Assembly: GCF_000377505.1 (NCBI RefSeq) | Contig: NZ_KB898187.1 | Location: forward strand, 1-64,000 | Length of the DNA stretch: 64,000 nt | Origin: Paenibacillus massiliensis 2301065 = DSM 16942 | GTDB lineage: Bacteria > Bacillota > Bacilli > Paenibacillales > Paenibacillaceae | Reading direction: 5' to 3' | Shown here: positions 34,594 through 59,475 of the stretch, one piece after another | Position numbering within the stretch: position 1 is the first letter of the stretch | Layout of the letters: the number at the start of each line of letters is the position of its first letter | Position numbers and translations under genes: made by a program | The notes under the pieces: generated by a model | The model's database searches: none | The model's input: only the letters and a program-made list of their open reading frames with translations | Told to the model about the DNA's origin: nothing

Positions 34594-34929
34594 ATGAAGA
34601 GTATGAGGGTAGAAAAAGAAACTAAGAAAACATTAGCTGATCAAGATGAACCTGTTACCGTAGAAGAGCTGAATGGAGAGATTATATCAGAGTTTGTACA
34701 ACAGCTTTCCTCCTACGGTCAATTCATCTACAACACGCGCAATGAAGGTGTCACTCTAGTTGTTGAGAATCTGGGCTATGGTGACGTCTATGTTAGCACG
34801 AACCCGGAAGTAAAGGTTGGAGTCGAAGAGCAGCGTCTGTTGATGAAAGAGCAGAAAGCATTCAAAGTAGACCGTGTGTTCTTTACTGCAGCCAGTGAGC
34901 CTGTGGTGCAGATCCTTGAAATATTGTGA
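34594..34929 (+). CDS. Probable small virion/tail structural protein
   Basis: 111 residues from ATG 34594 with AAAGAGGA upstream (ATG 34603 is an alternative). The second half is a predicted beta-rich segment, ENLGYGDVYVSTNPEVKVG then a KAFKVDRVFFTAASEPVV-type end, a pattern I associate with small phage surface or neck proteins. The N-terminal 35 residues are charged. It precedes the tail-completion-like gene by 90 bp. Confidence 0.55.
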   Translation: MKSMRVEKETKKTLADQDEPVTVEELNGEIISEFVQQLSSYGQFIYNTRNEGVTLVVENLGYGDVYVSTNPEVKVGVEEQRLLMKEQKAFKVDRVFFTAASEPVVQILEIL

Positions 34930-34985: not shown

Positions 34986-35019
34986 AGTTACGAAGCCGTC
35001 AGCAGAGGATGTGATACGC

Positions 35020-35472
35020 ATGGCTAAGATTAGCATCTCTGACGTATACGACATCATCCATGCTAATCTTCGGGAAGACCCGGAGATTCTGGAGATGCTT
35101 GGATTAGAAGGGGATGCTTCGCCTCAAAAACTGGCTGTTAGGATTCAGAAACGAAGGAATCCAAAAGAGCTGGAAGCAGACAATCTGCCTCTCATCTCGT
35201 TTTTTAAAATTCCGGGAGAGCGCGGGAAAAGCTATCTTGAGTACAGGTTCAGCGTCGTTTTTATCGTCCACACTCAGGATGATGTGGGGCTGGCTGTTCG
35301 GATCGCCGACAGAATCACAGAACTCTTTGATGACAGGTTCATGAGAGGGTTGAAGCAAGTCAGCTTTTTCGGGCAATACATTACGAGTGCAGAGGATGTA
35401 TCTAACCCTGGAAAAGGCTACAAGTATTTTACCCAAATTGGTTTTACCATTGGGATAGATGAGGATGAATAA
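35020..35472 (+). CDS. Probable tail completion / tail terminator protein
   Basis: 150 residues from ATG 35020 (AGAGGA 10 bases upstream; GTG 35011 is too close to it). No signal or membrane segment. The position directly before the tail tube gene, the length and the beta/alpha pattern (LISFFKIPGERGKSYLEYRFSVV, VRIADRITELFDD) suit the small tail-completion proteins that cap the tube at its head end. Sequence identity to a named family was not recognised. It ends 13 bp before the tube gene start. Confidence 0.55.
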   Translation: MAKISISDVYDIIHANLREDPEILEMLGLEGDASPQKLAVRIQKRRNPKELEADNLPLISFFKIPGERGKSYLEYRFSVVFIVHTQDDVGLAVRIADRITELFDDRFMRGLKQVSFFGQYITSAEDVSNPGKGYKYFTQIGFTIGIDEDE

Positions 35473-35485
35473 GGAGGTCTTTTTA

Positions 35486-36544
35486 ATGGCAAACACCAAG
35501 AATAAAAAAATGATTATCAAGGGTGCCGGCAAATTCATGGCTAAAATTCCGAATTGTGATGACCTGGTTACAATCGGTACCTTGAATAACATGCGTCTGG
35601 ATGTCCAGCTTGATATGCAGGATATCGAGGGAGGCGACTCCAGCGTAGCGCTCGATACATTACTGCGCAAGAAGACGATCGATGTCACCGCTGAATCGGC
35701 CAAATTCGATCTGAATCTTGTTCGTCTGGTCCTCGGCTCCAAGCTACGTGAAGGTGTCTCGGGTGCGGCATTCAATATGGTTACAGAAACGGTTGTAGTC
35801 CCTTCAAGTTCACCTTACCAGGTTGAATTATCGCAGCTACCAATCACCACCCCAGCTCCTAAGGCTTATGAAAACCGAGTGGGCGGCAATGATGTGACTG
35901 CTAGCGTATCCATCACGGGAAAAGATAAAACGGTCATTTTTGATATGGCTCTTGCCGGTGCTACGGTTGTGATTGTGTATGCTGTCGCTCTGCCAGGTGT
36001 AACACCGGACCCTGACGGCTTTGTATGGGTGCTGGAAGAGAAGCACACCATTACGCAAAAGGGAAGTAGCTTCGAGGTCGACCTGGTTTATGCTTCTTCA
36101 CTGCATAGTGAGCCGCAAATTTCTGTCCGCACACTGAATGGAAACAAGCTGCTGAAGAAGACGGCGAGCGCTTCTCCTGGCGAGGACCAATATGTTGTTG
36201 AAGGCGGCAAACTGAAGTTTAACTCTGCGTTGAAGGACGTAAACATCTACGTGAACTACAAGCGTAACGAAGTGGTAGACGTTCTCGATATTACCACGCA
36301 GGATATGCCACTGACTGTACATGTCGTGCATGATGGACAATTCGAGCAAAAAGACGGCACTATTCAAGGCTACCAGACCGAGTTGTTCCAATGCCGCGTG
36401 AAGTCTAACTTTACTCTGGATGCGCAACGCCAGCAGGCTTCTACACACTCGGTGACCCTGACGGTGATCGATCCTGAGCGTCCTGATGGAAAACTTGGAA
36501 GCATTAAACGTTACGAGGTAGCGAGCACAGGAACCGTGTGCTAA
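35486..36544 (+). CDS. Probable major tail (tube) protein
   Basis: 352 residues from ATG 35486 with AAGGAGG 8 bases upstream. The N-terminal ~110 residues and the final ~90 (ITTQDMPLTVHVVHDG, FTLDAQRQQASTHSVTLTVI) form a beta-rich core suited to a tail tube subunit. Between them is an inserted beta-module with IVYAVAL and IYVNYKR ends. The single gene has the best ribosome site of the group and is followed at once by a strong terminator, as expected for the most abundant virion protein. No contractile-sheath features are seen. Identity rests on order and fold pattern. Confidence 0.68.
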   Translation: MANTKNKKMIIKGAGKFMAKIPNCDDLVTIGTLNNMRLDVQLDMQDIEGGDSSVALDTLLRKKTIDVTAESAKFDLNLVRLVLGSKLREGVSGAAFNMVTETVVVPSSSPYQVELSQLPITTPAPKAYENRVGGNDVTASVSITGKDKTVIFDMALAGATVVIVYAVALPGVTPDPDGFVWVLEEKHTITQKGSSFEVDLVYASSLHSEPQISVRTLNGNKLLKKTASASPGEDQYVVEGGKLKFNSALKDVNIYVNYKRNEVVDVLDITTQDMPLTVHVVHDGQFEQKDGTIQGYQTELFQCRVKSNFTLDAQRQQASTHSVTLTVIDPERPDGKLGSIKRYEVASTGTVC

Positions 36545-36740: not shown

Positions 36741-37199
36741 ATGAATGAAAGAGATTTGGTTATTCCTAGAGCAAATGACGAAACGATTCAGCCTGAAGAA
36801 GCCGGGCAGGGAGAAGCTGCTTCTACAGTACAGGAAAATCCTCCAATGACTCAGGCAGAAGCAGATCAACGTGAGAAGGTCTACTTTGAAGAGGATGAGA
36901 AGGTTCGTCTTAGAGACGGTTTTACTTATTCCATTCCACCTCTGGGACTGAAAGACGCTCGTCAGCTGATCCAGAAACTGAACACGATTGATTCTGGCGT
37001 CATTATTGCTAACTTGATTCCCGAAGGTGAGGAAGAGGAAGACCGTTTCGACGAATTAATGGAGATTTTACATATGGCCTTCAAGCCATATTACAAACAT
37101 ATCACAGTGGAGTACCTCGAAGAATTTATAGACCTGGATACGGCTAAGACGATCATCGACTGCATGATCGGGTTGAATGGCTTAAAAAAGTCACTGTAA
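36741..37199 (+). CDS. Tail assembly chaperone, gpG-like (zero-frame product)
   Basis: 152 residues from ATG 36741 with AAAGGGGG upstream; upstream in-frame starts lack a ribosome site. Acidic N-terminus, then RLRDGFTYSIPPLGLKDARQLIQKLNTI and a helical end. It lies between tube and tape measure genes and ends in a slippery sequence, both hallmarks of the lambda gpG/gpGT chaperone pair, which coats the tape measure protein during tail assembly and is absent from the finished tail. Lengths (152 and 262 for the frameshift product) are close to lambda's 140 and 279. Confidence 0.85.
   Translation: MNERDLVIPRANDETIQPEEAGQGEAASTVQENPPMTQAEADQREKVYFEEDEKVRLRDGFTYSIPPLGLKDARQLIQKLNTIDSGVIIANLIPEGEEEEDRFDELMEILHMAFKPYYKHITVEYLEEFIDLDTAKTIIDCMIGLNGLKKSL
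37184..37190 (+). other. Programmed -1 ribosomal frameshift site (A AAA AAG)
   Basis: In the zero frame the codons are TTA AAA AAG, so the heptamer A AAA AAG has X XXY YYZ phasing, the most efficient bacterial -1 slip. It lies three codons before the zero-frame stop (TAA 37197-37199). After slipping, the -1 frame stays open to TGA at 37526-37528. Confidence 0.88.
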
Positions 37200-37528
37200 C
37201 CACTTCGAAGGAAGAAGAGGAATATGACAGTCAACCGCCAGTAGACTGGGCGAATATCTTCTTCAAGCTCGCGCATTACTGCAACTTTAAGAAGCAGGAT
37301 GTGTGGGATTTAACCCTTCCGCAGCTAGGTTACTATCTCGAGCAGTGCAATGAGCACATCCAGTTCACAGTCAAAATATCAACGATGTCACTTGGCGGTC
37401 TTGGATTGTTTAGTGGAGGCGTTGCTGCTGACGAACAAGGTGAAGTCGTAAAAGCCGATGGAACATATGTGGATGGATACAAAGTCGCTGACCAGGGAGA
37501 TATGGACTTCCTCGCAAGTCTGCTGTGA
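37190..37528 (+). CDS. Frameshift extension of the tail assembly chaperone (T part of gpGT)
   Basis: 112 residues in the -1 frame, joined to residue 150 of the upstream gene to give a 262-residue fusion. It begins VTVTTSKEEEEYDSQPP and includes DWANIFFKLAHYCNFKKQDV, WDLTLPQLGYYLEQCNEH and a Gly-rich stretch. It has no good ribosome site of its own; an internal GTG at 37301 has only weak SD-like bases. In lambda the T part binds the tube subunit while G binds the tape measure protein. Confidence 0.82.
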   Translation, partial: VTVTTSKEEEEYDSQPPVDWANIFFKLAHYCNFKKQDVWDLTLPQLGYYLEQCNEHIQFTVKISTMSLGGLGLFSGGVAADEQGEVVKADGTYVDGYKVADQGDMDFLASLL

Positions 37529-42190: not shown

Positions 42191-42222
42191 AGGTGGGGAT
42201 TCTTTTTAAGGAGGTTATACCC

Positions 42223-42843
42223 ATGACCCAACAGAATGTCATCTTGAATGAAGACTCTATATATAAGAAGAAGCTGTTCTACGATAACGGAATCGGGTAT
42301 CAGCAGATTCAGGCAAAATTGATAACGGAATACAAGCCCCCAACACCGACCATGAAATCACAGGTCAATCAAACAATATCTTCTTCTGCGGGCATGATCC
42401 AGGCGGGGACCTCCCACTACACGGCCACGATAACCCTGCTGTTCTACTCCAAGAAGGAGTATGCGGATTGGCTGCAGTTCATTGGATCTCAACATAAATA
42501 TTACGACGAAAAAGGAACCGTCTACGTTGGTGTTGTAGTTGGGGAGCCGGACATTAAGAATGCAGAGATGGAGACAAAGTACATTATCACCATCGAGCTG
42601 GCTCTGATCCGTAAGCAGGATTTTGAGTACAGGTATATGACGAACTTCCTCGATATTGATGACCACTGGGCCAAGGATTATATCAATGAGATGCAGCAGA
42701 TGGGGCTCGTTGCGACGAACTGGTCTTCTGACGGCAGCAATGTGGACTACTTCAGACCCAATGACCCCATCACCCGCTCGGAGTCCGTGACCCTGCTGAT
42801 GAGATCTTATCGTTACATCGACAAGCTATTGAGGGGGTATTAA
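42223..42843 (+). CDS. Baseplate/distal-tail protein with C-terminal SLH domain
   Basis: 206 residues from ATG 42223 with AAGGAGGT 6 bases upstream. Residues ~1-140 form a beta-rich domain of the type seen after tape measure genes (Dit-like position). Residues ~143-206 are an S-layer homology domain: FLDIDDHWAKDYINEMQQMG, then FRPNDPITRSESVTLLMRS. SLH domains bind pyruvylated secondary cell wall polysaccharide in Gram-positive bacteria, so this part would anchor the tail tip to the wall surface. The fusion of an SLH domain to a tail-tip protein is unusual. Confidence 0.75.
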   Translation: MTQQNVILNEDSIYKKKLFYDNGIGYQQIQAKLITEYKPPTPTMKSQVNQTISSSAGMIQAGTSHYTATITLLFYSKKEYADWLQFIGSQHKYYDEKGTVYVGVVVGEPDIKNAEMETKYIITIELALIRKQDFEYRYMTNFLDIDDHWAKDYINEMQQMGLVATNWSSDGSNVDYFRPNDPITRSESVTLLMRSYRYIDKLLRGY

Positions 42844-42844
42844 G

Positions 42845-43885
42845 GTGGAGCGCTGGATTGATGTAGACCCACTGGACTGGTTCTACCGGGATACACTGGA
42901 GATGACAAGACTAAAAACAAACCTGAACGGTGACGAAGTCCTTGCAGGCAAGACTTATAACGTATTTGCGGCGGGGCACGAAAGAATAGTCAGAAGGTTT
43001 ATTACAACCGAGGGCCAGCTGGAATTCCTGCTACCTGGCTACACCTATGATGCTAACGACCCCGTATATGTGATCGTCAATGGAGTAGAGGTTCTCCCGG
43101 AAAAGGTAGAGAACGGCAAAGTAACCATGTCCAATCCGTTGTCTGCAGGTATTGAGGTTGTATGTGTTGCGTACGGTATTCCGGATATCAAGCGTATTGG
43201 CTGCGTGGAGTCACCATACGAGGGTTGTTCAGACAGGGTACATCCCTGGGCAGACCTCAAATATAAGTCAACGTATTTCTTCAGCATGAATCACAAGCCG
43301 GAAACATGCACGGTGCTTGGCAAAAAACTGAAAAGGATCACAGTGAAAATTAATCCGGGAGACAATGTTGAGGACAAAATTGAGGCTGTCATTGGAGACA
43401 GGAAGGATGCCTTCACCATTTACAAAGGGCGAGTCTATCTCCCTTATATGTACAAGGATTTTCCTGCGAAGATCGGATACAATGCCGTTATTAACAGAAC
43501 CAGGAAGCATACATCGGAGACTGTCGTGGTTCAGTCAAGGTGTGTAAGGTACAATGACAGGTTTTTTCCAGGGGTCCGCCTACTTCGCGGTGAATTCTTT
43601 GCATTGATGGGCAGATTGCTGGAAAATATCCACAATCGGTTCACGGATAGAACTTTCCAGATCAATCCTCATCCGACGAGACACGTAGCCGACAGAGCTT
43701 CATGGGAGAAGAGGTGGTATGGAGGTCTTGTCCTATCCATGCTGAATGAAAAATTTGCTGACGGATGCTACGTGTTCCCGTTGTATAAGGATGAGAGGTT
43801 TGAGGCGGAGGAGTGCATGACAAGAGCTGAAGCCGTTACCTATTTGAACCGATTCATTGAATGGGTTACGGAAGTATATAGATAA
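42845..43885 (+). CDS. Baseplate-type protein with C-terminal SLH-like domain
   Basis: 346 residues from GTG 42845, two bases after the previous stop, with GAGGGGG upstream. It begins WIDVDPLDWFYRDTLEM and contains a small beta-module (EGQLEFLLPGYTYDA, VYVIVNGVEVLPE). The last ~65 residues resemble an SLH domain (ADRASWEKRWYGGLVLSML, then MTRAEAVTYLNRFIEW), less canonical than its neighbour. Two successive SLH-bearing tail proteins suggest cooperative wall binding. No enzymatic motif seen. Confidence 0.65.
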   Translation: MERWIDVDPLDWFYRDTLEMTRLKTNLNGDEVLAGKTYNVFAAGHERIVRRFITTEGQLEFLLPGYTYDANDPVYVIVNGVEVLPEKVENGKVTMSNPLSAGIEVVCVAYGIPDIKRIGCVESPYEGCSDRVHPWADLKYKSTYFFSMNHKPETCTVLGKKLKRITVKINPGDNVEDKIEAVIGDRKDAFTIYKGRVYLPYMYKDFPAKIGYNAVINRTRKHTSETVVVQSRCVRYNDRFFPGVRLLRGEFFALMGRLLENIHNRFTDRTFQINPHPTRHVADRASWEKRWYGGLVLSMLNEKFADGCYVFPLYKDERFEAEECMTRAEAVTYLNRFIEWVTEVYR

Positions 43886-43899
43886 GGCGGGTGTATGAA

Positions 43900-46800
43900 A
43901 TGGCCCAGGTATCGGATTTGAATTACCCATCTGAGCGTCTGCTGCAGGGGATCAGGGACAGGATAAACGCTTTCGGAAATTCACCGAAGGTATATATTGA
44001 ATTGGATAAAATGACATACGTGGACGGCTTCCGCCGCAAGTATGATGCGGTCAAGTATGTGGCGGAAAGCGTTACAGGTGATCTGCTATCCATTGATAAG
44101 GCCCAGAAGCTGACGGAGTATCAGGGCGGTGAGTTGATTGAAATTCCAACAGAGCTTCGCAATGCTAATATGTCCATGCCCATCCTCTCCAGTTCTACAA
44201 TGCACGGTAAAGAAAATGGCAAGAGAACCATTCAAGGAATGTATATTACAGACTGGTTCGAGACAGACCCTCGTTGCTCCCGCAAGCGGCATAAAGGAAT
44301 TGACCTTGATTTGGCCATAGGAGACGGGGTCCATGCCGTATGGAGTGGTACTGTACGTGTAGCAAGTTATCTTAAAGGATACGGAAATGTAGTTTATCTC
44401 GACCACGGCAACGGGTGGCAGACGAGGTATGCACATTTGAGTAAAATACAGGTTAATGTAGGGGATACGGTATCCGTGGGGAAGCAGGTTGGACTTGGAG
44501 GGAATAGCGGCCGCAGCATTTCCAGTGGAGGAGGAGATGGGTCTCATTTGCACTTTGAGGTTCGCAAGGATGATGTGGCACTGAATCCTGAACCCTTCCT
44601 TAGAGGGACGAAGACGATCCAGACCCCTACAAAGACCTCGACATCATCGAGCCCCGGTTCTTCCAGCGATGTGGAAATGAATATTGAAGCTACAGCTTAT
44701 GTAGCAACTTGCCCCGGATGCATCGGGATCACTCGGGGCGGAACGGACGTGAGGACTTGGAAAGACTGGAAGATTATCGCCGTTGATCCTTCGGTAATCC
44801 CACTGAAAAGCAGGGTCGAACTAATTGTAGATGGCGTAAGCTGGGGAGAATATCTGGCGGATGACACTGGGGGCGACATTAAAGGAAACCGCCTGGATAT
44901 CCTGATGGAGACCAAAGCTAAGGCGTTAAATTTTGGCCGTAAAAATGTACTTGTGCGTGTGAAGAGCTGGGGGGACGGTAAGGAAAGGACTTCGGCAGGA
45001 GGGGGTGGCACGACATACGAGATTACACCCGCAAAGGAGATCGTCACCTACCAGGTCAACAAGACGATAGCGCAGCAGTCCTTCTATAAGGACTTCTCCA
45101 AGCGTTCTGCGTTGGACAAGCTCAAATTCCCTGTTCAGGACGGATCTGAGCAGTTTTTCGTCAAAGATGGTGATAATCAGATTAACGTACTCGGCTTCAA
45201 AGGAACGTCGGGAGCTGGAAGTGAGAAGAAGCTGGTATTTGAGCACACTTGGACGAATAATGGAAATTTGGGGTGGGCGTACTATGCCGATTTTGAGCTG
45301 GATGATGTGGTTACAGTTAAAGTGGACAATTATTTGCTCGTTACCCTTAAGGGAAACAGCGCAAAGCATGGTATAGCTTATCCTGCTTCCATACCTGTGC
45401 CCAAGGGCAAGCATAAAATAGAGTTTAGCTTTGCCAATTCTACCAAGGCTTCGGTCGGCCAATTTGGTTTGCTTGATTTGCGAGCCAAGGAGTTTACGGT
45501 ATCTACTGTTGAACAAAAACAGGTGTGGGAGTTCGAGGACCCTATGAACTCTGTAAATAACTGGACACCCTACGGAACGGTATCTCAAGCAGACGGAGGC
45601 TCCTTCCAGGCGATCTCAACAAAAGGTAGCGAAGCAGGCATACAGCGCCTCGACCAGATCAAAAAGTTCCCGTTTACCATTAACTTCAGGGTCAAGATGA
45701 CCCCGGATTCCCAAGGAAAGCTTGTTGTGGGCGACGGCAAAAAGGCCTTTGTATTGAATCTGACCCATGACACGGTATATTCACAAGGCGGCGGACAGTA
45801 CAGCACGAACAACACTGATGATTTCGTGGAATACACAATGGTATGTCATGATGACACGGATATGGACTTGTATGTGAAACGGATTGGAGCAGATGAGGCA
45901 GGAACCTGGGTGAACACAGGTATTCGCGGAGCCGCAATCCAATACCCTTATCAAAGTCGCATTCTGTTCTCGGTCACGAAAGGGCAGATGAAGCTGGATA
46001 GCGTCAAATATGCTGCTAGCGACTATGCTATTGAGCAGCTTGCCACGCACATTGCTGAAAATTATTCAGAGCTGTGGTATGAGGTTGGTGATTTTGTGTT
46101 CGAGGAAACCTTCACCATTGAGTCGGACATCATGGAGTGGGAAGTAAATACCCATATGGATATGGCCTCCGCGACGGCGCGGGTGACATTGAACAACAGC
46201 TCAGGCTTGTACTCCCCGACATGGGAGCGCTCACCAGAGTTCCCCGAAGCGTATCGCAGCCCTGATTCGGCTATGTCCTATTACGAGGAAGGGGAGGTTC
46301 GCCACGTAGTCAGTGAAGGTACTCCGATCCGAATCTATGCAGGCTATGGTGAAGAGGTTGTACGTGTGTTCACTGGAATGATACAAGGTGAAATCCAGGA
46401 GGATTCGAAGAAAAAAACGATCTCCTTTAGCTGTGTTGATATGTACGATTTGCTGGAGGAATTTGTTTTCTACAAGCCCATGAATTATCCGCCTGATGAG
46501 GCCTATGCTGGTGATGGAGGGGCATATGCGTGGATCAAATCCTCGATCGTAGAGGATATTGTGGTGGCCGCAGGGTTAGCTAACTGGAGATTTCATGCAG
46601 AAGACCTGAAGCATGCTGACTACGAGATTGAGGATACAGTGTATATTGATGTCAATAAGGGCGAGAACACCTTCATGAAATTTAACCGTGAGACGGGAGA
46701 ACTGGAGGCTGTTAATCAGCAGGACATCATGAAGGTAGGTGGCTGGGAGAATCCTTTTGTAGCCAGCGTAACGTTTCCAATCGGCACCAGGGCCACAGAC

Positions 46801-47367
46801 GCCATACAGTCTCTGATCCAGGACATTCCTTACCACACTCGTTGTGACCGATATGGCACATTTTTGATGCATCGCATGGACTTTCTGGACTACCCGGACT
46901 GGCAAGTTCAGGATGGTGCCCGTTGGGAGTTTATTGACGGGGAGAACCTGATCTCCCTGGCATCCTCGACTGACTATTCTGGTGTCAGGAACCACTTGAT
47001 GATCTCAGGTTCTGCTGGTAACGTGGAGCATTTCTTCGATAAAAGTCTGATTGTGGCCACCAAAGGCAACATCCGTACAGCAGGCATACAGGCGGACTAT
47101 ATTGATGAACAAGATGGGGCTGCGATGAGAGGAGCGAAGGAGCTGGTAGCCAGCAAGGTATTCTTTGATATCAAAAGGCAGGCCAGAACCAAAAACGTCG
47201 TCGTAAAAGGGAATCCATTAATCGAGCTGCTAGATGCCGTATATGTGTACGACGCGAATACCTATACCGCCAATTACTTCATTGTGAAAGGGAACCGAAT
47301 GGTAGGCAATGGACAAGGGATCCAGAATTATCTGGAGCTCACCTGGCAGACGCTCACGAAATCCTAA
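43900..47367 (+). CDS. Tail hub / tail-associated lysin with M23 endopeptidase and 3D domains
   Basis: 1155 residues from ATG 43900 with AAGGCGGG upstream (GTG 43891 is the alternative). After ~110 residues of hub-like sequence comes an M23 peptidase: HKGID (His131, Asp135), RYAHLSK and SHLHFE (His216, His218) bind zinc and cut peptidoglycan peptides. After a Ser/Thr linker lies a 3D domain (~260-357) with AVDPSVIPL and the acidic run DDTGGD, related to glycan-cleaving MltA-type enzymes. Next are two lectin-like beta domains (~400-700). The remaining ~450 residues (FEETFTIESDIMEWEVNTHM onward) look like a prophage-tail hub core. Confidence 0.85.
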   Translation: MAQVSDLNYPSERLLQGIRDRINAFGNSPKVYIELDKMTYVDGFRRKYDAVKYVAESVTGDLLSIDKAQKLTEYQGGELIEIPTELRNANMSMPILSSSTMHGKENGKRTIQGMYITDWFETDPRCSRKRHKGIDLDLAIGDGVHAVWSGTVRVASYLKGYGNVVYLDHGNGWQTRYAHLSKIQVNVGDTVSVGKQVGLGGNSGRSISSGGGDGSHLHFEVRKDDVALNPEPFLRGTKTIQTPTKTSTSSSPGSSSDVEMNIEATAYVATCPGCIGITRGGTDVRTWKDWKIIAVDPSVIPLKSRVELIVDGVSWGEYLADDTGGDIKGNRLDILMETKAKALNFGRKNVLVRVKSWGDGKERTSAGGGGTTYEITPAKEIVTYQVNKTIAQQSFYKDFSKRSALDKLKFPVQDGSEQFFVKDGDNQINVLGFKGTSGAGSEKKLVFEHTWTNNGNLGWAYYADFELDDVVTVKVDNYLLVTLKGNSAKHGIAYPASIPVPKGKHKIEFSFANSTKASVGQFGLLDLRAKEFTVSTVEQKQVWEFEDPMNSVNNWTPYGTVSQADGGSFQAISTKGSEAGIQRLDQIKKFPFTINFRVKMTPDSQGKLVVGDGKKAFVLNLTHDTVYSQGGGQYSTNNTDDFVEYTMVCHDDTDMDLYVKRIGADEAGTWVNTGIRGAAIQYPYQSRILFSVTKGQMKLDSVKYAASDYAIEQLATHIAENYSELWYEVGDFVFEETFTIESDIMEWEVNTHMDMASATARVTLNNSSGLYSPTWERSPEFPEAYRSPDSAMSYYEEGEVRHVVSEGTPIRIYAGYGEEVVRVFTGMIQGEIQEDSKKKTISFSCVDMYDLLEEFVFYKPMNYPPDEAYAGDGGAYAWIKSSIVEDIVVAAGLANWRFHAEDLKHADYEIEDTVYIDVNKGENTFMKFNRETGELEAVNQQDIMKVGGWENPFVASVTFPIGTRATDAIQSLIQDIPYHTRCDRYGTFLMHRMDFLDYPDWQVQDGARWEFIDGENLISLASSTDYSGVRNHLMISGSAGNVEHFFDKSLIVATKGNIRTAGIQADYIDEQDGAAMRGAKELVASKVFFDIKRQARTKNVVVKGNPLIELLDAVYVYDANTYTANYFIVKGNRMVGNGQGIQNYLELTWQTLTKS

Positions 47368-47456: not shown

Positions 47457-47882
47457 ATGGCTGATGATCGCAACTATATTAACTCTAATGAAGTATTCCC
47501 CATCATTGATATGATTCGGCGAGAGATGGGCAGGCAGGGACTATACGCCGGTAACGGTACAGATGGGAGTCTGATCACCCAACTGCTGCCTGAGCCGAAC
47601 GTAATTAATATCGAGTGTCTGAGAGAGCTGCCGAGCCACCCTACACTGGTTACTACTGTGATCTACACCTACGACAATGGGAGCATGGAGCAGTTAACCC
47701 TTCAAAGAGATGACAGCTTGCTGGTTACCGGATTTCTGATTGAAATTTCGAGCCGATCACTCGTAAACGAGCAGTTGGAGGAGGAGACCGATATGGCAGG
47801 TTTCTCCACCATCCAAGGTACGCTCATTAGAGAAAACGGATTATTTAAGAACTTGCTACTAGAGTACACAAAGGCGGTGTAA
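47457..47882 (+). CDS. Hypothetical tail-locus protein
   Basis: 141 residues from ATG 47457 with GGAGCGAGGTGG upstream. Beta-rich middle (TLVTTVIYTYDNGSMEQLTLQ) and no known domain. It starts a new transcription unit behind a terminator and a CTTATAATG motif. Likely a small structural or fibre-attachment protein by context. Confidence 0.6.
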   Translation: MADDRNYINSNEVFPIIDMIRREMGRQGLYAGNGTDGSLITQLLPEPNVINIECLRELPSHPTLVTTVIYTYDNGSMEQLTLQRDDSLLVTGFLIEISSRSLVNEQLEEETDMAGFSTIQGTLIRENGLFKNLLLEYTKAV

Positions 47883-47886
47883 TCGA

Positions 47887-48273
47887 TTGTCTAGCGGAGC
47901 TAATTTCGCAAGTTATATGGTTGGCGGCAGATTCGACCCTCCTTTTATGCCTACCAAAACGAAGCCTTTTATCGTGGGTAGTATGGTTGAATCAGAGAGG
48001 ATAGGCAAGGTTGAGAGCAAGGTTGTAGTTGAGGAGCCCTGTGAGCTGTTGTCTGTTGCTGTCGGCGTGTCTAACTATGAGCCGAAAGATTACTGGAACT
48101 TGTATGTAGGGAATGAGCTGGTATGCAAAAACATTTATACGAAAGATGTCCCGGAGGGCATGTATCTGACTGCTATCATTCCATGTGAGATCGGAACACT
48201 GTTTCACCTTGAGTTTTTTAATGAGGGAGGGAAACAGAAATACGTATGGGTCAATTATCAGATGCTGAAATAG
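47887..48273 (+). CDS. Hypothetical tail-locus protein
   Basis: 128 residues from TTG 47887, with AAGGCGGTG 6 bases upstream and overlapping the end of the previous gene. Pattern of beta strands (ESKVVVEEPCELLSVAVGV, YWNLYVGNELVCKNIYT, LFHLEFFNEGG) suggests a jelly-roll-like receptor or decoration domain. Not assigned to a family. Confidence 0.6.
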   Translation: MSSGANFASYMVGGRFDPPFMPTKTKPFIVGSMVESERIGKVESKVVVEEPCELLSVAVGVSNYEPKDYWNLYVGNELVCKNIYTKDVPEGMYLTAIIPCEIGTLFHLEFFNEGGKQKYVWVNYQMLK

Positions 48274-48288
48274 AAGGAAGGTGAGGAC

Positions 48289-50958
48289 ATGGGGGACACA
48301 GCATACCAGCCGACACCTTGGATTGATACATTAGTCAACGAGAAAAGTCTTATGGACAGTATTGCGGGCATCTGTATGAATAACGGGTGGACAAAGGTGA
48401 AAGAGTTTACCAAAATTGCCTATCGTAGCACACTTACGAAGCCTGTAATTAAGCGATTTTACTTGCCACTGGCAAACCCAATCGTAGAGATCACAAGGCC
48501 ATTGAACAACGATTTCTATGTCTACCTTGATGGAGAGATTTGCCCGAGTTCCTACTACACCGTAACGGAGAATGGGGACAAGCTCAGTTTTCTATTTGAA
48601 GCAGGGGTCAGCGGTATGGCAGCTATTTATTATAGCGCAGTGGAGGGAACGGATACCTTTGATTTCTATGTTGCGAAGCACTACATCATAAAGAATGCTT
48701 CAGGGAATTTGTTCGGAATGGCACAGGTGGCGCACATCCATGAGCAGATTGGTAATACAGGCAATCATGTACCCTTTGCCATATATGATCCTGATGCCGA
48801 TTATGGGACCCAGTTGAGGCCCCAGGATGAGGGGATATTCTCTTGGGCTGTTCAGAAGGCAGAAGAGGACAATCTGTACGAGCTACACACCCTTTATTTT
48901 TACCAGCTGGAGAAGTGGATCGGCAACGGAAAAATGATCACTGGATGGAATAGCGCAAGCGCTGAAGAGTTGAAGCGTCTGGTATTGGACGTGGAAATGC
49001 AGACATCCATGTGGGGACTGCAAAATGATACGAACTCCCTTCAGTTCCAGGTAACTGACAAGTTCCCTCAGATGTACCAATCGCCCATCGTAGTCTCACG
49101 TACGAGAGTACCTCAGCTTGAACGTTTCGAGAAGATGGGTGGTATCGACATTAAGTACACGAACTGGTGGGATGACAGCAAGGTCATGCTCAAGGGGTTC
49201 GTTGATGGCAAATCACTTATGTTCGTCATCCTTTCAGACACAGCTCCGGTGTGGGATAACAACGTCGTTCCTGCGATTCCCTTGTATATGGGTGACTTCG
49301 ATACCGAAGAAACCTCAGAGGAGGTCGTACATAGGGAAATCATATTTGACTTTTCCGGTACGACTACAAAGTCATCTACGGTCATTTCTAACAGACCTAT
49401 GGCCAATGCACAATCATATGTTGATGTATGGCTGATGGGAGATGTGAACGGTGATTTTGATAATGAGTGGGTGAAGCTCACCATCGCAGGACAGGAGATC
49501 AAGACATTTAATGTCAGTGGAGATCACAGGCCAACGGATGATCGAAACGATGCTGAATATATGGGCAGGTTCGATATCACTGAGATTCAGGGTAAGAACT
49601 CCATCATCATTGAAGCATCCAGTGGAGAGGGTGTAAGCGGCTATACTCCAGTCGGTGCAAGGATGTGGCTAGAGCTTGTCATCCAGACGGACAAGGGTGC
49701 AGATGGAGCCCCAGCCGCGTTATTTGCAGGAACAGCACTGAGTAAGGAAGGGGCGGATGTAGAAGCCGCGATGAATGCTTCCGGAAAGTTTGATTTCGAT
49801 GATGCTGCAGTGAAGCAAGAGGTGCTTCTTCCCATCATGAAGGAGTACACTCATTATCCAAGCAATGGTGTAGATTCCGTCATGGTGAAGCAAACGAAGC
49901 ACGGCGCAAGATATCAAGCTCACTACATTGCGTGGGCTGTACCAGCCAACTCGATGCCTCCTTTAAGGCAGGATCAGAAGGACAGGAATTATCCACGGGC
50001 ATGGAACAACTACATGAACGACCAGTATAAATTTCAGTTCAATCCTTCCCGTTACAGTGGCAAGGCTCATTCTTCAAGGGCTACGGTAGTACATCCCGAA
50101 GATGGTAAGTTCGGTACACTACGGAACGTTATTTTAGTCTCCCCCTTAACTATAATGAATGGTGATGAGCTGCAGGCGACAAGAAATAACTGTGCTCCTG
50201 ACGAGGAAGATCGTTATGAAATCTACTCTTACTACTTGGTAGAAGGGATATCGCCACTTACGAAAAGACCTGCAACGGCGTATAGACCTGCGGGGCTAGG
50301 GATTCTGAAGGAAGGATATGTACTCCCTGAGATACCGCTTCCAGAGCCTGAACCGCCAGAGTTGAACGTATCGATCGCCCCGGCTTTCTCTGTGATCGAA
50401 GAAGGTCAGAGCATCAAGTTTACAACAGCTTACAGTAAGCATTCTCCACTGACGAACTTCAGATGGAACGCGGCGAGCAGCTTGACGAAGGGAAGTTACT
50501 CGGCAGAGAGTGCAATCTATACATTTAACACAGCTGGGACTTACACGGTGAGCTTTACAGTATGGAATGAACTGGGTCAGTCAGGGACGGCCTCGGCAAC
50601 GATCACTGTGAACGCCAAGCCAGTTCCACCGCCGCCCCCACCGCCGCCGCCTCCACCTAACACATTGCAGTGCGGTGTATCGAATAATACAGGTGGGGGG
50701 GCTCACTATGAGAAACACCATGAGATGGGCGCTAGTGCAGGCATGGTCAAGATTACTTATAACATGTTCACTGCAGCCGATAAGATGGAGGTTTTCTACA
50801 TGGGTCAACTGCTAGCGACTACACACATGGAGGTATCGGGAAAAGGTGAACTGAAGTTCTCGTATAATCCAGTTGCTGGTGTGACGCAGATTAAGGTTGT
50901 CTTGACCTCAAACGATCAAAGATCGGCTTGGGAGTATTTGGTGGATTGCCCCGTGTAA
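48289..50958 (+). CDS. Large tail fibre/structural protein A with PKD domain (paralogue 1 of 3)
   Basis: 889 residues from ATG 48289 with AAGGTGAGG upstream. The first ~690 residues share a scaffold with the next two genes: an N-terminal GW region, YTNWWDDSKVMLKG, VPAIPLYMG, then NPSRYSGKAHSS, VVHPEDG and EGISPLTKRPATAYRPAG. About 125 residues (~360-480) are inserted relative to paralogue 2. Beyond lies a PKD domain (~695-775), a polyproline hinge, and a C-terminal beta domain (MVKITYNMFTAADKMEVFYMG) of a type common in adhesive proteins. Probably a surface-exposed fibre component. Confidence 0.68.
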   Translation: MGDTAYQPTPWIDTLVNEKSLMDSIAGICMNNGWTKVKEFTKIAYRSTLTKPVIKRFYLPLANPIVEITRPLNNDFYVYLDGEICPSSYYTVTENGDKLSFLFEAGVSGMAAIYYSAVEGTDTFDFYVAKHYIIKNASGNLFGMAQVAHIHEQIGNTGNHVPFAIYDPDADYGTQLRPQDEGIFSWAVQKAEEDNLYELHTLYFYQLEKWIGNGKMITGWNSASAEELKRLVLDVEMQTSMWGLQNDTNSLQFQVTDKFPQMYQSPIVVSRTRVPQLERFEKMGGIDIKYTNWWDDSKVMLKGFVDGKSLMFVILSDTAPVWDNNVVPAIPLYMGDFDTEETSEEVVHREIIFDFSGTTTKSSTVISNRPMANAQSYVDVWLMGDVNGDFDNEWVKLTIAGQEIKTFNVSGDHRPTDDRNDAEYMGRFDITEIQGKNSIIIEASSGEGVSGYTPVGARMWLELVIQTDKGADGAPAALFAGTALSKEGADVEAAMNASGKFDFDDAAVKQEVLLPIMKEYTHYPSNGVDSVMVKQTKHGARYQAHYIAWAVPANSMPPLRQDQKDRNYPRAWNNYMNDQYKFQFNPSRYSGKAHSSRATVVHPEDGKFGTLRNVILVSPLTIMNGDELQATRNNCAPDEEDRYEIYSYYLVEGISPLTKRPATAYRPAGLGILKEGYVLPEIPLPEPEPPELNVSIAPAFSVIEEGQSIKFTTAYSKHSPLTNFRWNAASSLTKGSYSAESAIYTFNTAGTYTVSFTVWNELGQSGTASATITVNAKPVPPPPPPPPPPPNTLQCGVSNNTGGGAHYEKHHEMGASAGMVKITYNMFTAADKMEVFYMGQLLATTHMEVSGKGELKFSYNPVAGVTQIKVVLTSNDQRSAWEYLVDCPV

Positions 50959-51005
50959 CTGGGGGCTTCTCATATAAATGCAATTACGCAAAGGGGTGCT
51001 ATAAA

Positions 51006-52448
51006 ATGCCATTCATTGATACAACTCCTGCCAATTTTACACCAAAGATCAGGGAGAATGAACTACAGCCGTTGTTGGGTACGTTGCTCGAAACGGCAGG
51101 ATGGGAACGTGCGGCAGATTTCAAGAAGGTCGTATTCAACGCCGATACGCTCAGACCAAACTACCCTAACAATGCAGTTGCTGCGTTCCCTATTTGTGTA
51201 GCGGAGCACTTCATTTACAAGAATAAAGAAGGCCGCATGTTTGGTCTAGCTCTGGTAGGTCAGTGGAATACAACTAACGGTGAGATTGACGCGCTGGGCA
51301 AATCACCGGTAAAAGGTAAGACGCCTCTACCGATCTTCGCAGAGTGGGCCACTCAGGAATTTCGTAAGTACCGTTCTCCGCAGACTCTGTATTTTTACAT
51401 GGTGGAGAATTTGAATGGTCTGACACGTGCAGGAGATGACATTTGTCTACCTTGGACTGACAGCTCTGAAGCGGGGCTGAAGAGAGCAGCCTTGGATATC
51501 GAAGTGGAAGGGACGGCATGGGTAACCTCGGGAAGCTCTTCCAATGGTGTATTCACCATTACGAAGGCTGATGGTGATCGTATGCAGTCTCCGATCATGC
51601 AAGCAGGTCTGCGGGCAAAGTTCATGGAATCTTACCGGGATGAAAAATACAACTCCTCCGTCATGTACACCAACTGGTGGAGTGACTCTGAAATTTCAAT
51701 AAAAGGGACTCTGACAGATACTAGCTTGTGCTTCATCCTTCAGGCTGATAACGTACCTGCCCCAGAAGGGAACCTGGTTCCTACGATACCTCTGTATTTC
51801 GGTAAGCTGGATTCTGTGGAGGAAGGTGACGAGGCGTATGCCATGTTTGTAGGCAGCGTCCCGATGCTGGATACGGTAGATGGTGTAGCCAAGTATGACT
51901 TCGATAACACGGCGACACGTCAGCCTAACATTATGCCGTTACTGAAGACGTACCCGAAAAACCCTGCGAACGGTCTGGACAACGTGATGGTTCACCGAGC
52001 TAAGTTGGGAGCAAGATATCAGGCGCACTACCTGTCTTGGAACTCTCCACCTAACGCAATGCCACCTGCACGTACGACCAGTGACGGAAGGGATTACCCA
52101 CGTGCTTGGAACAACGCAGAGAACCCTCTGTATAAGTACAATTTCAACCCTTCTCGTTATAGTGGCAAAGTACACACCTCGAAGGTTTACGTAGTACATC
52201 CGGAGGAAGGTGTGAGAGGCACTCTTAAAGATACAATCGCACTTTCAGCATTCTCGTTCAATGCGAACAAGCTGCGTGTGAAGAGAGCGAATTGTCCTGA
52301 TGAATTTGACATTTATCGTTACTTTATGATTGAGGGGATCTCTCCATTCACCAAGAGACCGGGAACGCAGTTCCGTCCAGCGGGGATCGGTCTGTATCTC
52401 AACACAGTAGACGATGAGGATAAGGAAATTACTACTACCACCCCGTAA
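51006..52448 (+). CDS. Tail structural protein B (paralogue 2 of 3)
   Basis: 480 residues from ATG 51006 with AAGGGGTG 7 bases upstream; an upstream in-frame start overlaps the previous gene and lacks a ribosome site. It is the minimal form of the paralogue scaffold: GWERAADFKKVVF, YTNWWSDSEISIKG, VPTIPLYFG, NPSRYSGKVHTSKV, VVHPEEG and EGISPFTKRPGTQFRPAG. No PKD or C-terminal adhesive domain. Probably forms part of the same baseplate periphery or fibre as its neighbours. Confidence 0.65.
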   Translation: MPFIDTTPANFTPKIRENELQPLLGTLLETAGWERAADFKKVVFNADTLRPNYPNNAVAAFPICVAEHFIYKNKEGRMFGLALVGQWNTTNGEIDALGKSPVKGKTPLPIFAEWATQEFRKYRSPQTLYFYMVENLNGLTRAGDDICLPWTDSSEAGLKRAALDIEVEGTAWVTSGSSSNGVFTITKADGDRMQSPIMQAGLRAKFMESYRDEKYNSSVMYTNWWSDSEISIKGTLTDTSLCFILQADNVPAPEGNLVPTIPLYFGKLDSVEEGDEAYAMFVGSVPMLDTVDGVAKYDFDNTATRQPNIMPLLKTYPKNPANGLDNVMVHRAKLGARYQAHYLSWNSPPNAMPPARTTSDGRDYPRAWNNAENPLYKYNFNPSRYSGKVHTSKVYVVHPEEGVRGTLKDTIALSAFSFNANKLRVKRANCPDEFDIYRYFMIEGISPFTKRPGTQFRPAGIGLYLNTVDDEDKEITTTTP

Positions 52449-52484
52449 AGGGTGTAGGGAGATTAATAGAAGAGGTGATTAGTC

Positions 52485-54320
52485 GTGGCATGGTTTGATG
52501 GAGATTCTACGATTCAGTTGTTTCCTGACGAGCTTGAAAATAAATTCAACACCTACGGTTGGAACACATATATTAAATACCGTGCGGTTACAGGAGATCC
52601 AAGGAAGACTACCACTAAATTTGCCGATGTACGTCTGTTCCGTTCCATTGGCAGTGATGGTCAAATGCGTAACTTTGGCATGGTGTTTGGTTGGGGCAAC
52701 AAAAAGAAACAGCCTGGCGAGTTAGATTTCATATCTCAGAATTCTGTGCTCGGTGAAGCTGCGGCGGTGGCAGGAACAAAGAATAAGTTCCAGGTTCTTG
52801 TCCATCCGATTGATTCAGGTTCTGAGCTGATATACAAAAATGGTGTGTCTGTTGGTGAGAGTGAGTACACCATGGATTATTTCACTGGACAGTTCACCAT
52901 GAATGAAGAGCCTGACCCGACAGACAAATTCACGGTCTCGTATGCACCTGCGGTAAATGCTCCTGAAATGCCGAAGCGGTTGTTCTTCTTCACCTTTGAT
53001 GATGTCCGTTCTGAGAAGATTGTAGAAGGTATAAATGGTGGTGTAAAGGTGGGCGATCCTGAATCGATTCTGCCAGATGGCGACGGCACTAGACGGGTCT
53101 TCAGAATTCCAACTGTGGCTACCATTAATGAGGGATCTGTTCGCCTGTTTGTCAACTTAGCTGAGGCATCTCCTGATGATTTCACGGTTGACTACACAAA
53201 TAACACCATCACGATCAAGGATACCATCCCAGCCCCGTTTGCTGGTGCAGAGCTTAACTGCTCCTACGTTCGTGTTCTGGCAGGAACGGGGACAAGCACA
53301 ATCAACTATGGTGATATCATGACCCGTGATTTTACACCAGATGATGCCAAGAGGATGATGGATGCTGTCTACTCCTGCATGTATTACATCTACCCTTCGT
53401 TACCGACAGCCTTATCCTTTACTCCATTGGACAACTTCGATCGTGGCTGGCAGAGGGACAGCACGATGTATTTTTGGGGCAACTTTACAAAAGACCGCAT
53501 CGTCATGTTCTTGCGTCCCGACCCGACATCAGGACCAGAGAACACTTACTATGCACCACTGTACATTGGTCGCATGACGACGATCGGCAAGTCTCCCCGA
53601 AAGAATCATGTGCTTCTATCGGGCTGCCGTGAGAAGGATGAGGTCGTGTGGAAGAAGGATATGAAGCTTGGAGCGACCTTCGTGGACTATGGAAACAACA
53701 CGTCCAATGGGAATAGCTCTGTACAGCTTCAGCAGTCGATCGGCGGCACGTATTACCAGAAACACTATCTGGCATTCATCACGCATGATAAGGAAATCGA
53801 CGCGGGTGAATCCCGATTTAATCCATCTGTATACAGTGGTAAATATCATATTTCTCCGATGTATGTCGTTCACCCGAATGATGGATTTGTTGGCAAGCTG
53901 GATGAGGTATACGCTGTACATCCTAAGAATATCTCGCAGTTGGATGAGTTGGAGGTTATCGAGACGTCTACTGATGAGGACCTGGGCAAAGGCGACGGCA
54001 CTAACCGGATATTCCACCTTTCCCATCAACCTTCCATGAAGGATGATGGGACGCCGTTCCGCCTAGTGGTCAAGGTGGATTGTGAATCCCAGATTTACAA
54101 TACAGACTACACAATCGACTATACGACCAAGATGATTACGTTCGCGGCGGGCAAAGAACCTGCGGTTGGCGCTGAGGTTCTTGCAACTTACGAGTACAAG
54201 CAAATCTATCGCTATACTCTTGCTGATACGCCTGTCTCCCCTCTGACATTGGCTACGATCAGCCCGTTCGCTCCAATCGGTCTCGGAATCCTTAAAAAGA
54301 CCCTTGTGAAGAACAGTTAG
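52485..54320 (+). CDS. Tail structural protein C (paralogue 3 of 3) with three inserted beta-modules
   Basis: 611 residues from GTG 52485 with AGAGGTGA upstream. It keeps the scaffold in weaker form (YAPLYIGRM, NPSVYSGKYHISP, VVHPNDG, SPFAPIGLGILKK). It adds three copies of a ~65-residue beta-module at ~97-155, ~196-265 and ~501-572, the last two starting GDGTxRxF and all containing a Y-T-x-D-Y core and ending in a Y-x-Y-like strand. Related modules occur in other proteins of the locus. Probably an extended, surface-exposed structural protein. Confidence 0.65.
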   Translation: MAWFDGDSTIQLFPDELENKFNTYGWNTYIKYRAVTGDPRKTTTKFADVRLFRSIGSDGQMRNFGMVFGWGNKKKQPGELDFISQNSVLGEAAAVAGTKNKFQVLVHPIDSGSELIYKNGVSVGESEYTMDYFTGQFTMNEEPDPTDKFTVSYAPAVNAPEMPKRLFFFTFDDVRSEKIVEGINGGVKVGDPESILPDGDGTRRVFRIPTVATINEGSVRLFVNLAEASPDDFTVDYTNNTITIKDTIPAPFAGAELNCSYVRVLAGTGTSTINYGDIMTRDFTPDDAKRMMDAVYSCMYYIYPSLPTALSFTPLDNFDRGWQRDSTMYFWGNFTKDRIVMFLRPDPTSGPENTYYAPLYIGRMTTIGKSPRKNHVLLSGCREKDEVVWKKDMKLGATFVDYGNNTSNGNSSVQLQQSIGGTYYQKHYLAFITHDKEIDAGESRFNPSVYSGKYHISPMYVVHPNDGFVGKLDEVYAVHPKNISQLDELEVIETSTDEDLGKGDGTNRIFHLSHQPSMKDDGTPFRLVVKVDCESQIYNTDYTIDYTTKMITFAAGKEPAVGAEVLATYEYKQIYRYTLADTPVSPLTLATISPFAPIGLGILKKTLVKNS

Positions 54321-54341
54321 TATAAATGAGGGAGGTCGGCG

Positions 54342-57300
54342 GTGAATATGCTGAATGGTAATAAATCTTACCTTATCAGTTTCACCGCCCTTTTTAATAA
54401 AAAGGGCTATGAACTGGCTATTGGTATAGACACGATATTTGATGACGTGCGCACTACCCAATACCATCTTACAGCCCCTGCAATAAGTACCTACCGGACA
54501 CTGAAAATGGACGTGATGAAAACCGCCACGAAATCCCCATACTCTGCTTCCAGCCTTTTTGGGAATAGGCTGCGGGAAGCCGCTAACGTTACTGAGTTTG
54601 AAGCTGTGGAGATTCAAACGGTTTATGCCAATGTCGTTTCCTACCTTTCAGATATTCAAAGGTACTTCAGCGGGGAGAGCAGGGTGGATAGTATAAGGCT
54701 CAAAACAGCCGAAGGGAAGCGCACAGCGGTTGAAACAGAGCGTAGCGGACAGAGTGAAGGTGAAGTTTTTCATAACGTCCGGTTAGATTTCACAGTTCAA
54801 GCAGAGAATTTATTGGAAGCGTACCGCGAATCGACGGAGTCAGCAGAAAACATAGTCAGAGCAGCAGCTGAAGAGCTCATTTTCTCTGAGAATACAAAAA
54901 CAATCCAGCTTCACAGTCTCTCGAATTCTGACAACATATCTAACATAAGTGGTACCGCCGTCCAAGAGCACACATATGGAGACATTAGTCTAATCTATAA
55001 TATGCTCTCACTGAAGTTCGCGGAAGCAGAGAACATTAGGCCGGCGCTCAATATCAGCTTGGACATGCTCTCAGACAGCTTCGATATGGCTCCAATTACA
55101 GAAGTATTGATGCAGACGGTGGCGGATAACGTTGTGACAACAGATATTGAACAATTTACTGGTACACACCTGACCACGGACATTAAGGATGCGAGTTTCA
55201 TTCTCTTTACGTCTTCGGTGCGTGATGACGAGCTCGACTCAGCACCTATTGAGTGTGCAGTTGAGGGAGAACTGTCCAAGCTAGCAGAGATCGAAGAGTT
55301 TACTAGTGTAGGCAGGACCAAAGATTGGGAACATACCGACGTCGAGTATTTTGTTGCGGCATCTGATGGTAGGGACGAACATGCCACCGAGATTCATAAC
55401 GCGGTAGGGTCTCGTGGACTGTCTGATATGTTCGATGGTCTGATTGAAGAAGCTGCAGGAGTCAGCTCCGTATACGGTAATGAACTGGAGATCCTGGAAT
55501 TCCTTGACGGTCAGACACAAGATAGTGGGGAAGTTGTAGTAGAGCACATGACAGGCGCGGCAAACCAGTTAGCAAATGAACTGATGGGCCCAATTGAGCT
55601 TGTACAGGCGGAGCATGATACCCAGCAGATCGAGTCTGCAATTGATGGAGCCCTAACAGCTGAAATGATTAAGGGTATGGTCACAAAATCTCCCGAAGTC
55701 AGCAGAATGGCAAGGTTGATGGAGATTACGTACGGACACAGAGCCATGGAACTGGTCTATGCAGGTATGGATGGGATCATTCAGGACACGTTGAGCCAAG
55801 AAGCTACGTTAGCTGACTCAGGATCCATCACGGATGCCATAATCGCCAGGATGACCAAAGCCCTAAACGCACGAACGCTTGAAGTGGAAATGGCTGATGG
55901 AATGTCTAAGGGTACTTTAGAGTACTTTGATGACGCAGTGGAGGTCAAACCTGAGTACGGTAACGTCGAGAGCTATGGTGAAGCAGACAACAGTATCCGA
56001 CCTGAGCACGGGTCTGTTGACTTTACTGTCAATGCAGTAGAAAGCGAGCATGAGCACGGGATGTTAGATAACCTCGGCGAAGGGATTCTAAGTGAACCAG
56101 CACACGGTAAGATGGACAGCTCTGCAGAAGGGGCGAATAGCTTAACAGAGCATGGACGAGTAGACACCTACATGGAAGGTGTTGACTCCAAGCCAGTGCA
56201 CGGTAATGCCTTAACATTCGGTGAAGGTATGTACCACTTCATGGAAGCGGGAGAGCGCAATATCGGATACGATGGCGTCATACATGATATCGGAAAGGCT
56301 ATTGTCGAGGCGAACAAAAAGCTTGTCACGGTGGAAGTACCTGAGCAGGGGGAGATCATTAGCATGGATAAGGGAGTTCTTGAACAGCCTGAACACGGTA
56401 CAAGAGACCGTCTTGTGGATGTGGAGCTTACTTCAACCGAGCATGGAGAGCCAACTATTGTGCCTGAAAGCTACTTTACTAATGTTACAGAAACGAGCAT
56501 TCGCGATATTCGTTATGAAGGCATGGATCAGCCAATTGAAACAGCATCTCGAAAGATGGAACTTGAAGCAGTCAATTCCAATCCTGAATACGCCGATTGG
56601 ATCGATCAGGACATTGGTTTTGAACACTCGACAGAGTATGCAGATCGGTTCGGAGGAACATACGAAGGTATGTACGAGACGCCTACGCTGGCCAGCAGCG
56701 AGGGTTTCACCAACGATGCTGTTGCGCATGAGGCTGAGGGCGGTGCAGGGAATGAGGGTACGATAACTACCATAGTCGCAAGTAATGAGTGGGCTGATAA
56801 TCACAGCTCTGGTGAAGGTATTCTTGATAACGAGGCGGGACTTGGCTCGGCAGATCTGGTACTTGATGCTATACAGAGCACGACCGAGGGAGGCACAGGC
56901 GAGCTAATCCTTGACGCTGTTAATAACAACGGTGAGACAGCTCGTGTTGGAGACTTCCATATGATCTCCGATAATCAAGAGATGATACTAGCGGAATTGA
57001 ACGGAGGAACCGTTGAGTCTGAGGTTGGAGAGGACACGGAAGCCGATTCTGTACTTATAACTAGAGGCACTGACATAGGTGAAATCACGGATAGCATCCG
57101 TAAAAAGAAAGTAATCCCAACTGATGTTATGCACAGCGTAGACTCTCAACGGAAGAAGAAAGTGAACGAGATGGTCATTACAGAAACTTTTGACTCGACA
57201 AGGAAAAAGAAGATCATCGACACCAGGGTTGAGAACGGGGAGCGGAGCAACCGGATCAAGGAGGTTGTCAGCGTGAATATAGAAGAGTCTGATCATGCAA

Positions 57301-57449: not shown

Positions 57450-57457
57450 GTGAGACG

Positions 57458-58546: not shown

Positions 58547-58560
58547 GGGGGTGTTAGACT

Positions 58561-59394: not shown

Positions 59395-59400
59395 TTCTAC

Positions 59401-59438
59401 ATTGGGCGGCTAAAAAGCCGTCCAATGAACTTATATTG
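59401..59438 (+). promoter_or_regulatory. Hairpin plus CTTATATTG motif between fibre genes
   Basis: ATTGGGCGGCT-AAA-AGCCGTCCAAT (59401-59426) is a strong stem without a U-tract. CTTATATTG (59430-59438) follows, 37 bp before the start at 59476. It may be an mRNA-processing or partial terminator site next to a promoter. Confidence 0.45.
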
Positions 59439-59475
59439 TATATGCAGTAACCATTTCAAATAGAGGTGAAAATAT

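Follow-up and report, generated by a model that had tools for sequence, protein, structure and literature searches.

The −1 frameshift in the tail genes of phage lambda, through which G and GT are made, is said to have been found conserved among phages by Xu, Hendrix and Duda in 2004, and the heptamer on which lambda slips differs from the dnaX-type A AAA AAG. The tape measure protein of lambda is bound by both gpG and gpGT and the tube subunit by the T part, the finished particle containing neither of the two; in E. coli, A AAA AAG ranks with the most slippery sites (PMC5009743). The phages related to the locus analysed here belong to the genus Jenstvirus and comprise Bacillus phage EZ-2018a and the Brevibacillus phages Jenst and SecTim467, the latter two being siphoviruses by microscopy (PMC4909266). 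In the records of Jenst and SecTim467 the frameshift is unannotated; G is labelled DNA polymerase III gamma/tau and its −1 partner appears as a separate hypothetical protein. Tails without head genes are known from the F-type tailocins, namely the F-pyocins, the Listeria monocins and rhizoviticin (PMC10811719), and a related bacterial family provides the PBSX-like phage tail bacteriocin of Brevibacillus laterosporus (PMC9406221). No description of a non-contractile tailocin from Paenibacillus was found in the literature searched, which does not show that none exists.

The window, that is, the whole stretch of 64,000 nucleotides that was analysed, covers the first 64 kb of contig C3 in a genome of 6.39 Mb. 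It carries a gene that, like lambda G/GT, lies between the tube and tape measure genes, encodes a short product and a −1 fusion, and has its slip site just before the G stop. Unlike lambda, the gene uses A AAA AAG, its sequence falls outside current Pfam models and it resides in a headless chromosomal element. The preliminary description had proposed that the locus reproduces lambda gpG/gpGT; this is correct for the arrangement, but the slip site itself is of the dnaX type and not the heptamer of lambda. With Jenst, SecTim467 and EZ-2018a the window shares a homologous tail module, in the same order and with the heptamer and the −1 frame (its G is 64% identical to that of Jenst and 56% to that of EZ-2018a), whereas these phages have heads, packaging and replication genes. 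The likeness to F-type tailocins consists of a non-contractile tail without head genes, the lysis genes and a chromosomal position; the difference is that the window element comes from another phage lineage, one that is Jenstvirus-like, and has phage-type sigma factors. The B. laterosporus bacteriocin is likewise a tail-like particle, but it is contractile, with the sheath protein XkdK, whereas the window element has no recognised sheath gene. Taken as a whole, it is highly probable that the locus encodes a chaperone of the lambda G/GT type expressed with −1 slippage, within a headless tail module that is most likely used by the bacterium. The frameshift adds one more example of a rule well known from phages, and its setting in a siphophage tail without a head is more interesting than the frameshift itself. 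The features are collected in Table 1.

Table 1. Location of the tail module genes and of the slip site (window coordinates; C3, contig coordinates)
Feature	Coordinates	Strand	Basis
Jenst gp27 homologue	34594..34929	+	tblastn
Tail terminator, probable	35011..35472	+	position and homology to Jenst gp31
Tail tube (major tail) protein, 82% identical to Jenst gp32 (AVV11_gp159)	35459..36544	+	
G, tail assembly chaperone, 152 aa, PHROG 25072 (unnamed)	36741..37199	+	sequence, PHROG match, fold
Slippery heptamer A AAA AAG, in phase	37184..37190	+	sequence, relatives
T, −1 extension, 112 codons; PHROG 36983 covers C-terminal part; GT 262 aa	37190..37528	+	
Tape measure protein, about 1435 aa	37596..41903	+	
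Tail protein with S-layer homology domain	42193..42843	+	
Tail protein, Jenst gp37 homologue	42845..43885	+	
Tail-associated cell wall hydrolase-like protein, Peptidase M23 and 3D domain	43891..47367	+	
Distal tail/adhesion proteins, homologous to Jenst gp39-gp47	47457..60708	+	
Large GLUG-repeat protein, runs past the window to C3:64781	61980..64000	+	
Holin-like gene	C3:69034-69381		
Amidase	C3:69429-70460		

The slip site and its two reading frames

The ATG of G at 36741 is preceded, with good spacing, by AAAGGGGG, and the end of the gene reads ...GGC TTA AAA AAG TCA CTG TAA (TTA, 37182-84; AAA, 37185-87; AAG, 37188-90; TAA, 37197-99). The heptamer is thus in X XXY YYZ phase and is followed by two sense codons and the G stop, matching to the base the earlier statement that G ends three codons after it. 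Entered with GTC at 37190, the −1 frame continues to the TGA at 37526-28, and the fusion is made of 150 + 112 residues; the 112 additional residues and the two product lengths given previously were recovered at the same coordinates. An in-phase A AAA AAG was present in none of the 14 other window genes scanned. Leucine codons ending in A account for 16% of leucine codons in the tail genes and lysine is encoded by AAA in 37% and by AAG in 63%; the share of ATA in the tail module is 12%. Because of these leucine and lysine codon shares, retention of the codon triplet by chance is expected in about 4% of cases per independent lineage.

By the proposed mechanism, most ribosomes would finish the short G product, and a minority would slip back one base on the heptamer, the two lysine tRNAs re-pairing with AAA AAA, to yield GT. 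G would coat the tape measure protein as in lambda, the T part would, by analogy with lambda, recruit the tube subunits to give a tube of defined length, and the headless tails would be released through the holin and the amidase.

Conservation of the signal among relatives

The chaperone is encoded in 30 of 75 genomes of the same genus. Further loci come from Paenibacillus, Brevibacillus and Bacillus species of a named genome collection and 45 more from IMG/VR; a search for near-identical phage DNA found none. In a first set, the in-phase heptamer and an open −1 frame were present in 31 of 32 relatives, where the 0-frame stop lies 0-2 sense codons past the heptamer and 107-119 open codons of the −1 frame follow that stop. 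In a second and larger set they were present in 76 of 78 loci, of which 73 were scored directly and three (L120-L122), in which the match began upstream of the stops, were added; L120 was read directly, and L121 and L122 were counted by their identical ending. Both sets overlap, some loci being one genome under two names, and the second search was seeded by peptide patterns, one of which (IGLNG[LI]KK) spans both lysines, which biases the set towards the amino acids, though not towards their codons. The codon before AAA was TTA, CTA or ATA in all cases read, despite the rarity of leucine and isoleucine codons ending in A. The slip site of one locus (L118) is A AAA AAA. In Paenibacillus sp. OVF10 (L088, on the same record and chromosome as L038) the A run is one base shorter, which severs the chaperone from its extension; this assembly is of lower quality (89% complete, 3% contamination) and a sequencing error is indistinguishable from a real loss. 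The comparison of homologous loci that the preliminary description had called for therefore shows that, apart from this record, neither the heptamer nor the −1 frame has been lost in close relatives.

Selection acting on both frames was analysed by pairwise dN/dS within groups (Nei-Gojobori). Finite values ranged from 0.01 to 0.28 for G and from 0.03 to 0.32 for T, and this low range includes groups whose tested members are headless; several wider comparisons were left out, being saturated at synonymous sites. Relative synonymous variation was computed in windows of nine codons for groups A, B and C. The minimum of group A falls at the junction, at 0.28 of the expected value. In group B the variation at the junction is zero, in a small number of sequences that have a second low spot at +85, and in group C it is 0.34, near the minimum, other windows being equally low. 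The heptamer and the short stretch read twice account for part of this dip, which in groups A and C extends downstream for about 15 codons. As judged from these comparisons, both frames are under purifying selection and the slip signal is real and selected. Given the extent of the dip, a downstream signal may exist; folding the 75 nt downstream of the site singly in each of 17 sequences yielded z values from −2.2 to +1.7 and no shared stimulatory stem. Because no stem stands out downstream, the efficiency of slippage cannot be judged.

Identity of the chaperone

For the window G all Pfam models stay below their cut-offs, and relatives of G give weak, chance-like matches only; the match to Phage_TAC_12 is sub-threshold, with an E value of 0.0099. 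PHROG 25072 (G) and PHROG 36983 (T) are both families of unknown function, and profile searches with the G and T sequences returned nothing convincing among solved structures. The AlphaFold model of G has a moderate mean pLDDT of 67, with residues 1-34 below 50, and consists of a beta hairpin followed by helices; the mean pLDDT of the T model is 68. Foldseek with the G model gave no significant match in the PDB, and many matches named tail assembly chaperone among viral models. Comparison with PDB candidates by VIA-align placed 3fgx, 5ir0, 2ob9 (HK97 TAC) and 3klu (YqbN) at the top with Z values from 5.3 to 3.9 (4.6 for 2ob9 and 3.9 for 3klu), unrelated rows scoring about 3; with a moderate model, Z values this low can arise by chance. 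The predicted fold of G weakly resembles solved tail assembly chaperones such as HK97 2ob9 and YqbN 3klu and, because the Z values are low, it serves as supporting evidence only. The identification is carried by the frameshift together with the order tube, G/GT, tape measure, which is conserved in the phages and in the elements. On these grounds the locus is assigned to the tail assembly chaperones of the G/GT type, a known kind, and is not covered by current Pfam models. A consequence of this assignment is that PHROG 25072 and PHROG 36983 can receive a name, each being one half of the same chaperone, and that the phage annotation as DNA polymerase III gamma/tau, a name that nothing in this analysis backs, is corrected.

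Setting of the gene in a headless element

The element extends from after pbp1A to before spoVK (79255 of the contig) and includes, beyond the window, an adhesin, the holin, the amidase and sigma factors. When Jenst proteins were compared by tblastn with 70 kb around the element, matches were found for the proteins from the tail terminator through the adhesion proteins and for the holin, the endolysin, gp134, gp075 and the sigma factor gp117; terminase, portal, capsid and integrase remained unmatched. The Jenst portal and major capsid protein (MCP) had no match in the whole of the element's own genome, and family scans of the tested ORFs recognised no sheath, terminase or capsid. The label ‘head and packaging’ given by these scans goes back to families of the type ‘virion structural protein’; their members in Jenst are encoded in or beyond the tail region. 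Among the 75 genomes of the genus, the tube is present in 30 and a Jenst-type capsid in a single one (G031), whose prophage is complete, terminase, portal and integrase included. Portals in other genomes of the genus are 29-41% identical and, where compared, lie far from the tail locus.

These results indicate that the element is probably a non-contractile tail that has been domesticated and whose frameshift persisted after the loss of the head. Its gene content suggests that it is most likely an F-type tailocin, a released non-contractile particle that would serve the bacterium by killing, by adhesion or in some other way. That the frameshift has been kept suggests that the tail is still built and used; its retention where virions are no longer produced provides good evidence that tail assembly continues and benefits the bacterium. 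The earlier claim of a functional rather than decayed tail pathway accordingly stands with respect to function, given the low dN/dS in both frames and the full-length tail genes, but the pathway belongs to a headless module. We infer from this setting that the tail is used as a tail-only particle and not as part of a virion.

Several features of the module deserve mention in their own right. The combination of an S-layer homology domain and a Peptidase M23/3D pair in its tail proteins fits an action on Gram-positive walls. About 85 residues of the window tube protein (around 101-187) are unmatched in the tubes of group C. The gene of gp27 adjoins the capsid gene in the phages and yet is kept in headless elements; gp27 may belong to the tail or have a regulatory role instead of being part of the head. 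Two sigma-factor-like genes are located late in the element (C3:71119-71649 and C3:76033-76995). The product of the second shares 61% identity with Jenst gp117 and is a possible activator of the tail genes.

Alternative explanations

The −1 frame could be a separate gene with its own start, the heptamer being incidental. Two ORFs are indeed annotated in Jenst and SecTim467 (the −1 frame is gp34 in Jenst), PHROGs keeps separate families for G and T, and the −1 frame of the window contains a GTG at 37301. This GTG is, however, the first usable start in that frame, the sole purine-rich stretch abuts it and it is not kept in relatives, in agreement with the previous observation that the −1 frame has no good ribosome site of its own. 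No T start with a ribosome site is shared among 31 sequences, in which the starts vary in codon and position and, in several, first occur at codon 45 or later. The conserved T residues W20, F24, F25 and L27 lie upstream of the candidate starts and the codons of the heptamer are conserved at synonymous positions, which makes a separate gene an extremely improbable reading compared with slippage into a GT fusion.

As for the element, the disappearance of head, replication and integrase genes, together with stretches matching terminase and portal that remain in related elements (e.g. L062, L065 and L097), would be expected if the whole tail module were what is left of a decaying Jenst-like prophage, with the frameshift as a relic. 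Decay is nevertheless hard to reconcile with tail genes that are mostly full length in the window from the tail terminator to the adhesion proteins, with a retained lysis pair and with low dN/dS in both frames of groups in which the members tested lack a head; the synteny of the flanks between species in two groups also points to long vertical maintenance, and we consider a remnant quite unlikely. It is also very unlikely that the element, instead of forming a tail-only particle, acts as a satellite or gene transfer agent with heads taken from another phage: other prophages with distantly related portals do exist in some genomes of the genus, but the family scans of the element recognise no terminase, packaging or replication gene, and its own genome is without a Jenst-type portal or capsid. 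A maintained tail-only element is the reading preferred here.

Variety and evolution of the elements

Comparison of the elements reveals differences in what is left upstream of the tail. In six of them (L062, L065, L096, L097, L101 and L102) the DNA upstream of the tube contains stretches matching the Jenst terminase and portal, as if the head module had collapsed by deletion. The window retains the gp27 homologue and the tail terminator, and groups B and C are mostly without a recognisable terminator. The related elements thus show grades of head loss. Head loss has probably occurred more than once, because the GT tree needs seven changes between the head and headless states, at least five of them forced by well-supported branches; the labels in this tree rest on 6 kb of upstream DNA, in which unlike heads could be missed. 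G013 and G063 share syntenic flanks of the element, as do G002 and G020, and the element has therefore been inherited in place in these two groups. We lean towards a scenario in which Jenstvirus-like tails gave rise several times, in Paenibacillus and Brevibacillus, to headless chromosomal elements at different fixed sites, with the frameshift kept, and which would represent an undescribed family of F-type tailocins.

The length of the tape measure varies widely among these tails: 1435 aa in the window, 1738 aa in Jenst and 3050 aa in G031. In the two group B regions that were read (G013 and G063) the tape measure ORF has 247-286 aa and the frameshift is kept. This series, from about 250 to about 3050 aa, would lend itself to testing whether a longer or shorter tail requires a different G:GT ratio. 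At about 0.15 nm per residue, the tape measure of the window would correspond to a tail of near 200 nm. If the headless family is real, the short-tape lineage (about 250-290 aa, two members read) would give a tail of about 40 nm. The short-tape group is of the P. terrae/P. maysiensis/P. farraposensis type (L070-L073 and the G013 and G063 regions, L045-L050), and its elements carry the same tail genes and the frameshift.
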